From a virus: a stretch of 20,480 bases of DNA. A program made the translations under genes and the position numbers. The stretch covers positions 1-20,480 of the IMG/VR virus record IMGVR_UViG_3300005909_000174, one strand, 5' to 3'. This document shows, one piece after another, positions 1,201 to 6,976 of the stretch. Every line of letters begins with the position of its first letter. The stretch's first letter is position 1. The notes under the pieces were generated by a model. The model did not search any database, was not told the origin of the DNA, and saw only the letters and a program-made list of their open reading frames with translations.

Positions 1201-1644
1201 ATGGGTGAAGACACAGGATACGAATCAGCTTTCAATGAAGCTGCCCTCAAGATGAAGAGGATACATGAGTCTCAAGATGTTATTAATTCTATGAGCGTTA
1301 ATCTTCTTATGCATAACTACGTTGCTGAGAAGTATAATTATGAAATCGTATGTGCTGAGTTAATTAATTTATTCCATGAGGTTAGTGGTAAGCTAAGTGA
1401 TAAAGAAAAAACAGAAGGAAAGAGATGGAGAGACTTACTGATAATTACCTTAGAAGTAAAACCTATATTTACATTAGAGTATCAAGATGGTTTAGGAGAA
1501 CGAAAGAAATATAATAAACACAACAGCGAGAACTGGACATTCCTTAGGAAAATTATATTTGAATTTGGAGATATGATTAGAGAGTACCTAGAGAAACATG
1601 GAATGTCTGCACCTAATCAAGAGTCGGATGGTGGCTGGGACTAA
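1201..1644 (+). CDS. Helical protein of unknown function upstream of the ATPase
   Basis: 147 residues, predicted largely helical and charged, with no signal peptide, membrane segment or recognisable motif. It is the first gene of the rightward capsid operon and starts about 26 nt after a TATA box, so it is probably translated from a leaderless message. Its stop overlaps the ATG of the ATPase gene by one base (TAATG), which suggests coupled translation and perhaps a physical or regulatory partnership with the ATPase. The family is not recognised. Confidence 0.8.
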   Translation: MGEDTGYESAFNEAALKMKRIHESQDVINSMSVNLLMHNYVAEKYNYEIVCAELINLFHEVSGKLSDKEKTEGKRWRDLLIITLEVKPIFTLEYQDGLGERKKYNKHNSENWTFLRKIIFEFGDMIREYLEKHGMSAPNQESDGGWD

Positions 1645-2534
1645 TGGTATTGCTTAGGTTTAATAAGAGTATTAAGAAATGGGATATAATAAATCAGGTA
1701 AATAAGAAGGAAGGTGATTTATATCTTGATGGTTTTCTCAAGGATAAACTTGACTTCGCTAGGAAACAACGAGCTAAGAATAATGATGTCGTTGGTATTA
1801 TATGCGGAGATGAAGGCTCTGGTAAATCTACAGCAGCAGGTAACATAATGAGATATGTTACTGACGATAGCTTTGACCCAACCAAAGATATGATTGGCTC
1901 TGATGAGAACGATGCCTATGAAAAATTAGAGAAGGTTAAGCAAGGTGGAAATATTCTATTTGATGAAGGGAATGTTTTTTTTCTATCTACAGAGACGATG
2001 AAGAGACAGCATAGGGACTTACATAAAATATTTAGTATTTTCAGACAGAAGAATCTATTTGTATTAATTGTTTTGCCGTCGTTCTTTAGACTTGGAACTT
2101 ACTTCGCTTTAGATAGATCAAAGTTTTTAATAAGAACATATCTCAATAAAGGTGAACGTTCATTCTTTGCTTACTATGGTGACAAAAGAAAGAACAAACT
2201 TTATAGAAATGGAAAGAAGATGCACGATTATCAAGTGACACCGCCAAACTTTAGAGGACGATTCACTAAATGTTTGCCACTTGAGTCTGATGAATATAAG
2301 AAGTTCAAGTTAAAGACAATGAAAGAGGCGTTTACTATAGCTAACAGGGTTAAACCTAAGACCCCATACCAAATTAGAATTGAGAGGAATGAATCGATTG
2401 TTAGAAATGGTGGTAACTTTACAGCAAAGGGGTTAGCCACTATCCTAGAGTGTTCAGCTAGTAGTGTGGAAAAAATAAGGGCACGTTTAAAGGCTGAAAG
2501 TGTCAAGAACGCCGAGGCAATAGTCGTCAATTAG
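1644..2534 (+). CDS. P-loop ATPase, probable virion assembly or genome-packaging motor
   Basis: 296 residues. Walker A is GDEGSGKST at about residues 55-63. A Walker B-like strand NILFDEGN lies at about 103-110. These are followed by FRQKNLFVLIVLPSFFRL, an arrangement seen in the Zot-like and other ATPases of filamentous and spindle-shaped viruses. The C-terminal 45 residues (AKGLATILECSASSVEKIRARL) resemble a helix-turn-helix, suggesting that the motor contacts DNA. It sits directly before the two capsid-like genes, as expected for an assembly or packaging ATPase. The exact family is not certain. The minus-strand frames inside it are shadows. Confidence 0.8.
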   Translation: MVLLRFNKSIKKWDIINQVNKKEGDLYLDGFLKDKLDFARKQRAKNNDVVGIICGDEGSGKSTAAGNIMRYVTDDSFDPTKDMIGSDENDAYEKLEKVKQGGNILFDEGNVFFLSTETMKRQHRDLHKIFSIFRQKNLFVLIVLPSFFRLGTYFALDRSKFLIRTYLNKGERSFFAYYGDKRKNKLYRNGKKMHDYQVTPPNFRGRFTKCLPLESDEYKKFKLKTMKEAFTIANRVKPKTPYQIRIERNESIVRNGGNFTAKGLATILECSASSVEKIRARLKAESVKNAEAIVVN

Positions 2535-2659: not shown

Positions 2660-2713
2660 ATGACTATATATGTTCTACAGGTTTTGAAAGGAGGTTTAAA
2701 TATTTTAAAATGA
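2660..2713 (+). CDS. 17-codon leader ORF before the first capsid gene
   Basis: ATG at 2660 lies at the predicted transcription start. The frame encodes MTIYVLQVLKGGLNILK and ends in a TGA that overlaps the capsid ATG (ATGA, 2710-2713). A GGAGG lies inside the leader at 2690-2694, about 15 nt from the capsid start, which is rather far for normal use. Leaderless initiation here followed by termination-reinitiation could set capsid output. It is equally possible that the ATG is fortuitous and this is simply a 5' UTR. Confidence 0.4.
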   Translation: MTIYVLQVLKGGLNILK

Positions 2714-3021
2714 AGTTTAAAAAGAAAGGAGGAGTTGTAGGTGACTTGATATCTGGTACAGGTGGTTTAATTATTACTACTATCGTTATCTTAGTTGTTG
2801 TTTCAACTCTTTTAGGAGCAAGTCTATTGACTGCTAATTCTATATACGCTAACGCATCTACTTTGATGGCTGGTAACTTTACAGAGGGGATCAATAATGT
2901 TTCTAGTAAAATACCAACAATCTTATTGATTGCTGCTGTTGTACTATTATTCGGTGTTATTGTACTTTTGGTAAAACAAGCTGGTGCTATGGGAATTGGA
3001 GCTGGAGGAGCTTCCTTATAA
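2710..3021 (+). CDS. Putative major capsid protein, short paralogue
   Basis: 103 residues. A basic N-terminus (MKFKKKGGVVGDL) leads into a first hydrophobic helix (about 19-40). A short loop with three N-glycosylation sequons follows, then a second hydrophobic helix (about 69-88) and a Gly-rich tail (GAMGIGAGGASL). Two hydrophobic helices in a roughly 100-residue protein is the architecture of spindle-shaped archaeal virus capsid proteins, and position after a P-loop ATPase fits. Alternatives are an archaeal pilin-like protein (the KKGG before the hydrophobic helix is reminiscent of a class III signal peptide) or another membrane virion protein. Its N- and C-terminal coding blocks are identical at nucleotide level to those of the next gene. 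Confidence 0.7.
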   Translation: MKFKKKGGVVGDLISGTGGLIITTIVILVVVSTLLGASLLTANSIYANASTLMAGNFTEGINNVSSKIPTILLIAAVVLLFGVIVLLVKQAGAMGIGAGGASL

Positions 3022-3032
3022 AGTAGTTAACT

Positions 3033-3605
3033 ATGAGGTTTAAAAAGAAAGGAGGAGTTGTAGGTGACTTGATATCTGGTACAGGTGGTTTAATCATCTT
3101 AACCGTTATTGTTCTAGTTATAGTATCAACTCTTCTTGCCGCAAACCTTTTAGGTGCAGATGATACAACAACTAATACTGTTGCTAATGAAACAGGTGCA
3201 TGGCTTAATTCCACTGGATATACATTAGCTAATGTAAATTCTAGTAATAGTGCTTATACTATTACTGAGGTTTGGGCAAATGCAACAGCTACAGCATATC
3301 TTGTTCCATCTGCTAACTATACAGTTTCTACTGGTGGTGTTCTGACGAATGCTACTGTTATTCCAAGTGCTACAGAATATAATGACGTTAACGTAAGTTA
3401 TACATACATATATTCTACAGATAATGTTTACGAAGTAACTTCCAATGCTATGGGTGGAAACCTAACAGCTGGAATCAATAACGTCTCTAGTAAAATACCA
3501 ACAATCTTATTGATTGCTGCTGTTGTACTATTATTCGGTGTTATTGTACTTTTGGTAAAACAATCAGGAGCTATGGGAATAGGATCTGGAGAAGCATCTC
3601 TATAA
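3033..3605 (+). CDS. Putative major capsid protein, long glycosylated paralogue
   Basis: 190 residues. Residues 1-22 and the last 43 or so are nearly identical to the 103-residue protein, but about 87 residues are inserted between the two hydrophobic helices (about 22-40 and 156-175). The insert is Thr/Ser/Asn-rich and beta-like, with motifs YTITEVW, NYTVSTGG and VNVSYTYIYS, and the protein has about nine N-x-S/T sequons. It looks like a surface-exposed, heavily glycosylated decoration domain carried by a capsid subunit. It begins 11 nt after the short paralogue, so both should be co-transcribed. A minor or decorated capsid protein is the likeliest role. The minus-strand frames at 2664-2894 and 2987-3214 are shadows. 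Confidence 0.7.
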   Translation: MRFKKKGGVVGDLISGTGGLIILTVIVLVIVSTLLAANLLGADDTTTNTVANETGAWLNSTGYTLANVNSSNSAYTITEVWANATATAYLVPSANYTVSTGGVLTNATVIPSATEYNDVNVSYTYIYSTDNVYEVTSNAMGGNLTAGINNVSSKIPTILLIAAVVLLFGVIVLLVKQSGAMGIGSGEASL

Positions 3606-4318: not shown

Positions 4319-5014
4319 TTAAGCTGGGAGTATTCCCGAACCTCCAGCACATATTGTATCTGCTTGTGATAATGCTCTTACTAAGGGAGCAGTAGCATCT
4401 TCAGCAGCTTGCATTAATGTAGCGGTTTCAGATATTAATACTCCAATTTGATCTATCAATAACCATAAAGCAATTATCATAATTATTAGGAATATACCAT
4501 TTATCATGATAGTTCCATATTTCTGCATAAAGGTTTCTTTTCTATATCTCTCTTGAATATTCTTTCTTATAGCAACGTGCATATATCTCATATCTCTATC
4601 TATAGGTTCAATGTCTAACATATTCATTTTAGCATCTAAATCACCTAAAAGAAAATTATACCAATATCCATCTTGCCCAACTGCAAACCAATATTCGTTC
4701 TTATTCATCTTACGGCCATAAGCAGCTCTATAGCTTTTTAGTTTTCTAAGATAAAGTATTTCTTCTCCACCATCACCAATCTTAATTAATCTTGCACGAT
4801 CTTTATATGCAACCTTATATCCCTGGCCACCAATGTTTTCAAATAGAATAATTTTATATTTGAATTTCTTATTGGTCATAAAAATCCATATACCAATCGC
4901 TATAGAAATAAAAACCAGAACAGCAATTAATATATAAGTTATAGTACCACCAAAAGAACTAGTTAGTGATGGAAGACTAATATCTCCTGTACTTATACCA
5001 AGAACTTGTCCCAT
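4319..5014 (-). CDS. Two-helix membrane protein with a cytosolic or internal domain
   Basis: 231 residues. A short N-terminal segment precedes membrane helix 1 (about 25-46). A soluble domain of about 120 residues follows (50-165) with beta-like stretches such as KYKIILFENIGGQGYKVAY and many aromatic residues. Membrane helix 2 (about 168-195) comes next, then a small tail with one Cys. It is the largest gene of the leftward membrane operon and a plausible virion or egress protein. I do not recognise a family. Its ATG overlaps the stop of the 43-residue gene before it by one base (TAATG). Confidence 0.75.
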   Translation of the reverse strand: MGQVLGISTGDISLPSLTSSFGGTITYILIAVLVFISIAIGIWIFMTNKKFKYKIILFENIGGQGYKVAYKDRARLIKIGDGGEEILYLRKLKSYRAAYGRKMNKNEYWFAVGQDGYWYNFLLGDLDAKMNMLDIEPIDRDMRYMHVAIRKNIQERYRKETFMQKYGTIMINGIFLIIMIIALWLLIDQIGVLISETATLMQAAEDATAPLVRALSQADTICAGGSGILPA

Positions 5015-6484: not shown

Positions 6485-6976
6485 CTATAAAACCCCCCCT
6501 GTTTTCCTACTCCGTTTAAGTCTTGGTCTTCCAAGCGTCTTTCCTTGTGCCCTTGCTCTATCCAAACCAGCCATAGTCCTTTCTCTAATAATACTTCTTT
6601 CAAACTCTGCAAAGCTTCCCATTACCTGCATCATGAGTTTTCCAGAAGAAGTGCTTAAATCGATATTTTCCATAAAGCTAACAAGAACTACTCCTTTCTC
6701 ATGTAGTGCTTCCATATGAGTTACAAGTTCCTTTAAACTCCTCGCCCACCTATCTAACTTATAGAATAATAATCCATCAAACTCTTTCTTCAACAACCTA
6801 TTGTATAAGTCCCACTGGACAGGCCTAGACTTCCTTGTAGACTCTTTTTCTGTAAATACTTCATAATCCCACCCCATTCTTTCAGCGTACTCTGTAAGCG
6901 GTCTTATCTGATTCTCAAGAATTTGATCTGTCCTGGAAACCCTGCAGTATATAGCATATCTTTTTTTATTTTCCAT
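6485..6976 (-). CDS. Serine recombinase (resolvase/invertase), no DNA-binding domain
   Basis: 163 residues. The catalytic domain is complete. It opens with YAIYCRVSR with nucleophile Ser14. GLLFYKLDRWARS at 68-80 and FAEFERSIIRERTMAGL at 122-138 are hallmark motifs of the family, and the E-helix ends in GKTLGRPRLK. Resolvases normally continue with a helix-turn-helix of about 40 residues; here the frame stops after RSRKTGGVL. The last codons run through a G7 tract (6493-6499), but shifting by one base does not restore a helix-turn-helix. No TnpB or transposon ends are seen. Either a domesticated, partner-dependent recombinase or a truncated remnant; the intact catalytic core favours function. 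Confidence 0.9.
   Translation of the reverse strand: MENKKRYAIYCRVSRTDQILENQIRPLTEYAERMGWDYEVFTEKESTRKSRPVQWDLYNRLLKKEFDGLLFYKLDRWARSLKELVTHMEALHEKGVVLVSFMENIDLSTSSGKLMMQVMGSFAEFERSIIRERTMAGLDRARAQGKTLGRPRLKRSRKTGGVL

Follow-up and report, generated by a model that had tools for sequence, protein, structure and literature searches.

Two adjacent genes of the window (the whole stretch analysed, 20,480 bases long and taken from IMG/VR), capS and capL, are probably paralogues encoding the coat of a spindle-type virus of DPANN archaea, as a plain major subunit and a decorated minor one, the helices of both having been homogenised by gene conversion. The genes lie in tandem, capS first, 11 nt apart (Table 1), and according to sequence and low-confidence models both products consist of two hydrophobic α-helices linked by a loop with sequons. 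The original prediction had described exact blocks of 57 and 78 nt between the genes, about 87 extra residues and about nine sequons in the long copy, and a difference between the copies in helix 1 and the loop. Both blocks are present where they had been placed, the long copy has 87 more residues and nine N-X-S/T sequons to the three of capS, and comparison of the two genes confirmed that helix 1 and the loop differ. Neither block can be extended, even by one base.

Table 1. Positions of the paired genes, their exact blocks and neighbouring features in the window.
Feature	Coordinates	Strand	Basis or remark
Conserved protein preceding the ATPase, 147 aa	1201..1644	+	homologues in L037 and L038
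ATPase upstream of the pair, homologous to SSV1 B251 and His1 ORF16	1644..2534	+	hmmsearch
Shine-Dalgarno-like GAAAGGAGGT preceding capS	2686..2695	+	
capS (103 aa, 3 sequons), plain short gene; helix-loop-helix protein of capsid type	2710..3021	+	ORF; relatives
Exact block 1, capS copy (N-terminus and start of helix 1)	2715..2771	+	57 nt
Exact block 2, capS copy (SSKIPT and helix 2)	2902..2979	+	78 nt
capL (190 aa, 9 sequons), the long, decorated paralogue of capS	3033..3605	+	ORF; long-type relatives
Exact block 1, capL copy	3038..3094	+	= 2715..2771
capL loop domain, 102 residues (15 in the capS loop), rich in sequons, with weak beta prediction	3153..3458	+	homologous in other viruses
Exact block 2, capL copy	3486..3563	+	= 2902..2979
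Conserved 231-aa membrane protein, syntenic marker by the capsid pair	4319..5014	-	homologues in many relatives

Within the blocks, codons are identical in unbroken runs of 18 (block 1) and 26 (block 2); given the window's own codon usage, full codon agreement by chance has a log10 probability of -6.5 and -9.8, respectively. Outside the blocks, residues common to capS and capL are frequently encoded by differing codons, and synonymous sites there have diverged roughly as far as they have between viruses. Between loci, residues in common use the same codon in 44% of cases on average (6906 codons compared). Because the blocks are synonymously identical and the stretches beside them strongly diverged, gene conversion, one of the causes originally proposed, is a better explanation than a recent duplication of the whole gene or nucleotide-level selection; it is supported as a process that would account for sharp-ended exact tracts covering the helices and stopping before the loop. 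A single recent duplication, also proposed, is unsupported since it predicts even similarity along the genes, which is not seen, and since homology of the long loops extends across diverged viruses while the helices of the long genes do not form one clade. Helix-only trees grouped short with long by genome, with three type changes for three longs and, with 28 rows, eight for eight. A single clade of longs was rejected with 18 rows (AU p 4e-43) and with 28 rows (AU p 7e-5), values that mean "rejected" and have no meaningful magnitude, as the trees are built on 90 hydrophobic columns and are fragile; all alignments were small (3-28 rows). Simple descent of the longs as a single line that predates the divergence of the viruses would make their helices group together, which is not observed. 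Selection for a signal or structure in the nucleic acid of the blocks, DNA or RNA, would also produce synonymous identity within them, but other viruses vary the same codons freely (against L024, the nearest relative, 13 of 37 are identical in the C-terminal half holding block 2), and this explanation is very improbable. Scarcely credible, too, is the switch cassette of the original prediction, here taken as a phase-variable one in which recombination between the blocks would alternate plain and decorated coats. The loop is flanked by direct repeats and relatives with a single gene exist, but crossing-over between direct repeats would irreversibly delete one gene and leave one short or one long gene; moreover, the order is short then long at every locus with both, and no inverted repeats were found at the blocks.

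Scans of viral and genome contigs with capS or the ATPase as single proteins, or with a two-row alignment, gave no matches, and the way into the family was a scan with the P4-type primase, which led to ten contigs. Over a dozen viral contigs or MAGs contain relatives of capS. Some have a single short gene alone, L057 and L046 (a contig of a Pacearchaeota MAG) have two short copies, and in L024 a row of three genes comprises two short ones and a long one. The short-to-long tandem occurs at nine loci besides the window, in IMG/VR contigs and DPANN MAGs, and in all ten the gene order and the insertion point of the loop are constant. Long-type relatives are L024, G016, L082-L085, L094, L097 and L098, among which L082 and L083, being near-copies, do not count as independent, and L085 is close to L097 (81%). 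Recurrence of the same gene order in independent metagenomes makes an assembly artefact unlikely as the source of the pair. Four of the relatives (L082, L083, L084 and L098) have both the 231-aa neighbour and the ATPase, as the window does, and are therefore related viruses or proviruses, not chance look-alikes; this argument from shared neighbours leaves out L085, L094 and L097. Aligned identity of short to long within one locus is 74-91% in nine loci and 57% in L094, while that of short to short between loci is often 16-30%, the range into which most distant loci fall against the window's capS. Exact blocks between short and long genes were also found in L083 (79 nt), L084 (47 nt), L085 (46 nt) and other loci (38 and 35 nt).

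Some peculiarities of these contigs were recorded separately. Several stop in or near a capsid gene, as repeats would cause. The ends of G016 and G011 overlap by 54 and 99 nt, respectively, which suggests circular complete genomes in records classed as linear; through its overlap the short gene of G016 runs into the long gene. In L045 (JAFCGI010000012.1, 8276-8640) two tandem short capsid genes merge out of frame at a repeat junction, and there is a short tandem duplication at the 3' end; recent recombination or an assembly error would account for this.

The loop of capL contains more sequons than expected (P 0.029 by shuffling), and for three long loops the excess has P values of 0.007-0.029. 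Shuffling tests established homology among the long loops of L024, G016 and the window, with one score of 141 against a shuffled maximum of 81, and others of 78 (reached by one of 2000 shuffles) and 60 (by none of 2000). A profile of these three loops led to proteins of 193-202 aa at four loci in DPANN MAGs, all four of which, in their wider context, have a short copy upstream of the long gene. The same profile matches the remaining longs, to which L094, L097 and L098 are later additions, at E 4e-18 to 9e-6. Between capL and the long protein of L085, the loop has 42 of 93 residues identical (z 17) and the helices 25 of 86 (z 7.5). The loop domain was also found within a large protein of surface type, rich in sequons, that a DPANN genome encodes (L086/L078; G321:C9), so it may be common to viral coats and cell-surface proteins. 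The loop tree (AU p 0.09-0.12) is too weak to separate vertical descent from re-insertion, and discordance between loop and helix histories was not significant. A different arrangement was seen in L044 (786-2288), where a Laminin_G_3 domain is followed by the C-terminal half of a capsid protein, and in L094 (7720-9660), where a capsid-like N-terminal helix is followed by a putative LamG-like stretch. These LamG-type fusions are possibly further decorated subunits; similarity of the L044 ectodomain to the long loops was not significant.

The reading of these proteins as probable coat proteins draws on their architecture and neighbourhood. Sequence searches of Pfam, NCBIfam and the PDB with the capsid candidates gave no match, and PHROG matches were weak only (E 0.015 or worse). 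Aligned with fusellovirus VP1/VP3 or His1 VP21 by hhalign, they gave a probability of 3.4% and a P of 0.013, figures obtained with short hydrophobic sequences. The capS model has helices at 8-36, 45-65 and 68-97 (pLDDT 71, pTM 0.27); the low-confidence capL model has helices at 8-36 and 132-181 and weak strands in the loop. With these low-confidence models fold searches returned one gap-junction chain for capS and, for capL, weak matches to phage tail and neck proteins, and no solved spindle or bacilliform capsid chain appeared in the Foldseek and VIA listings. A degenerate GD-L-I-S-G-T-G-G pattern was tried and discarded, as all its matches were unrelated. The upstream ATPase was more informative: hmmsearch against four viral proteomes gave E values of 3.7e-18 (His1), 2.6e-6 (SSV1) and 5.5e-6 (SSV2), and hhalign gave 97% and 92%. 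Its homology to His1 ORF16 and SSV1 B251 ties the virus to spindle-shaped archaeal viruses. Taken together, the helix-loop-helix proteins, the sequons of the loops and the adjacent spindle-virus-type ATPase leave the originally suggested plain and decorated capsid subunits as the best reading of the pair.

The host is probably a DPANN archaeon, Pacearchaeota or a relative, as judged from the MAGs into which relatives were binned; the capsid profile matches one of 371 genomes of the phylum. The Pacearchaeota MAG encodes an STT3 oligosaccharyltransferase, and the window itself encodes a XerA-like integrase. A limited literature search, which proves little, found no published work on such viruses of DPANN hosts. 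Elsewhere in the window, positions 1-162 hold an 81-nt tandem repeat (copies 81% identical) in a frame running off the window start, and positions 6485-6976 encode a serine resolvase N-terminal domain that is 86% identical to one in L021, whereas the capsids of the window and L021 are far less alike; by this comparison, the resolvase gene appears to be mobile or strongly conserved. In L082 (6278-7333) a reverse transcriptase-like frame lies near two similar proteins with related C-termini, which together could be a diversity-generating retroelement.

A working model of the coat can be proposed. Both capS and capL would form hydrophobic hairpins, with the two helices packing in the virion shell and the loop facing outward. 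With its short loop and its own ribosome-binding site, capS would probably be the major subunit. No Shine-Dalgarno sequence lies near the start codon of capL, which may be translated behind capS and is probably the minor subunit. Across the loci such a sequence precedes the first short gene in most cases and the long gene in one of ten, which suggests that the decorated form may be in the minority. On the virion surface capL would display a predicted N-glycosylated beta-type domain of about 95 aa, which could help the virion attach, shield it or control its shape. A single lattice would have to accommodate the helices of both proteins, and repeated conversion between the neighbouring genes would keep those helices alike; as conversion halts at the loop, the decorated domain would keep its own history. 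The mechanism offered is thus one of two coat proteins in one lattice, with decoration at some positions only.

Two other accounts of the pair concern the origin of the loop and the function of the proteins. One holds that in each lineage a young local duplicate of the capsid gene took up a circulating loop domain at the hairpin turn, the helices matching only because so little time has passed since duplication. Its attractions are that loop similarity exceeds helix similarity between lineages, that the domain occurs in the large surface-type protein of G321, and that the window's nearest neighbours differ by loop and by helix. Identical tracts amid virus-level synonymous divergence, as seen in the window, are nevertheless impossible from a single young duplication, the constant order and insertion point in ten loci speak against repeated capture, and the loop tree does not reject vertical descent; we regard this account as rather unlikely. 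Still less likely is that the proteins are a cell-surface or pilin-like two-helix set, not capsid proteins, carried by viruses to modify the host surface. The N-termini of several relatives (KKGQ or KRGQ) resemble those of archaeal prepilins, and a loop domain in common with a surface-type protein would fit such a role, but there are two hydrophobic helices and not one, viral contigs carry the genes, with a spindle-virus ATPase close by, and Pfam and PHROGs searches, among the window proteins that they covered, revealed no second capsid candidate.

A broader proposal can be made tentatively, and it is somewhat more doubtful than an even chance: the exposed domain would be the conserved, portable part across DPANN viruses and the assembly helices the fast-changing one, with conversion from the plain gene overwriting the decorated helices, so that one display domain persists in, or moves between, otherwise incompatible shells. 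The conserved loop would also be a bait for capsid genes with helices too diverged to recognise, and since it works as such, hidden viruses of DPANN archaea become searchable.

Among known systems, two groups of uncultivated spindle viruses, Huangdivirus (Bathyarchaeia) and the NYMAG-47 group (Nitrosopumilaceae), have two-helix capsid proteins with loop sequons; the available parts of the reports describe short turns, with 0-2 potential sites in the NYMAG-47 group, and no long decorated tandem copy (PMC10848311, PMC10866085). His1 (Halspiviridae) has the ATPase closest to that of the window and a small two-helix capsid protein, VP21, but its genome lacks an exact repeat of at least 25 nt and has its own type-B DNA polymerase gene. 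SSV1 (Fuselloviridae), which also has a related ATPase, offers the nearest parallel. Its VP1 and VP3 are likewise encoded by adjacent paralogous helix-loop-helix capsid genes, the one with the shorter loop first, with sequons in the loops. Both proteins are glycosylated, and VP3 is a minor, dispensable subunit, the loss of which results in longer, thinner virions (PMC5748691, PMC9608457). There is no significant sequence or profile similarity to the window's capsids, the loop of VP3 exceeds that of VP1 by just some 20 residues, whereas capL has a whole domain of about 90, and VP1 is produced as a cleaved precursor (PMC5748691). As in capS and capL, however, the two SSV1 genes have an exact block in common, of 61 nt, annotated as "direct repeat 3" (L065, 12926-12986 and 13212-13272); SSV4 has a corresponding block of 25 nt, and five others have blocks of 8-11 nt. 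Block lengths in the other loci and in fuselloviruses fit conversion events of different ages. The window's pair is best read as a new and unusually clear variant of VP1/VP3-type paralogy, and beside it the SSV1 repeat would look like one instance of a general process.
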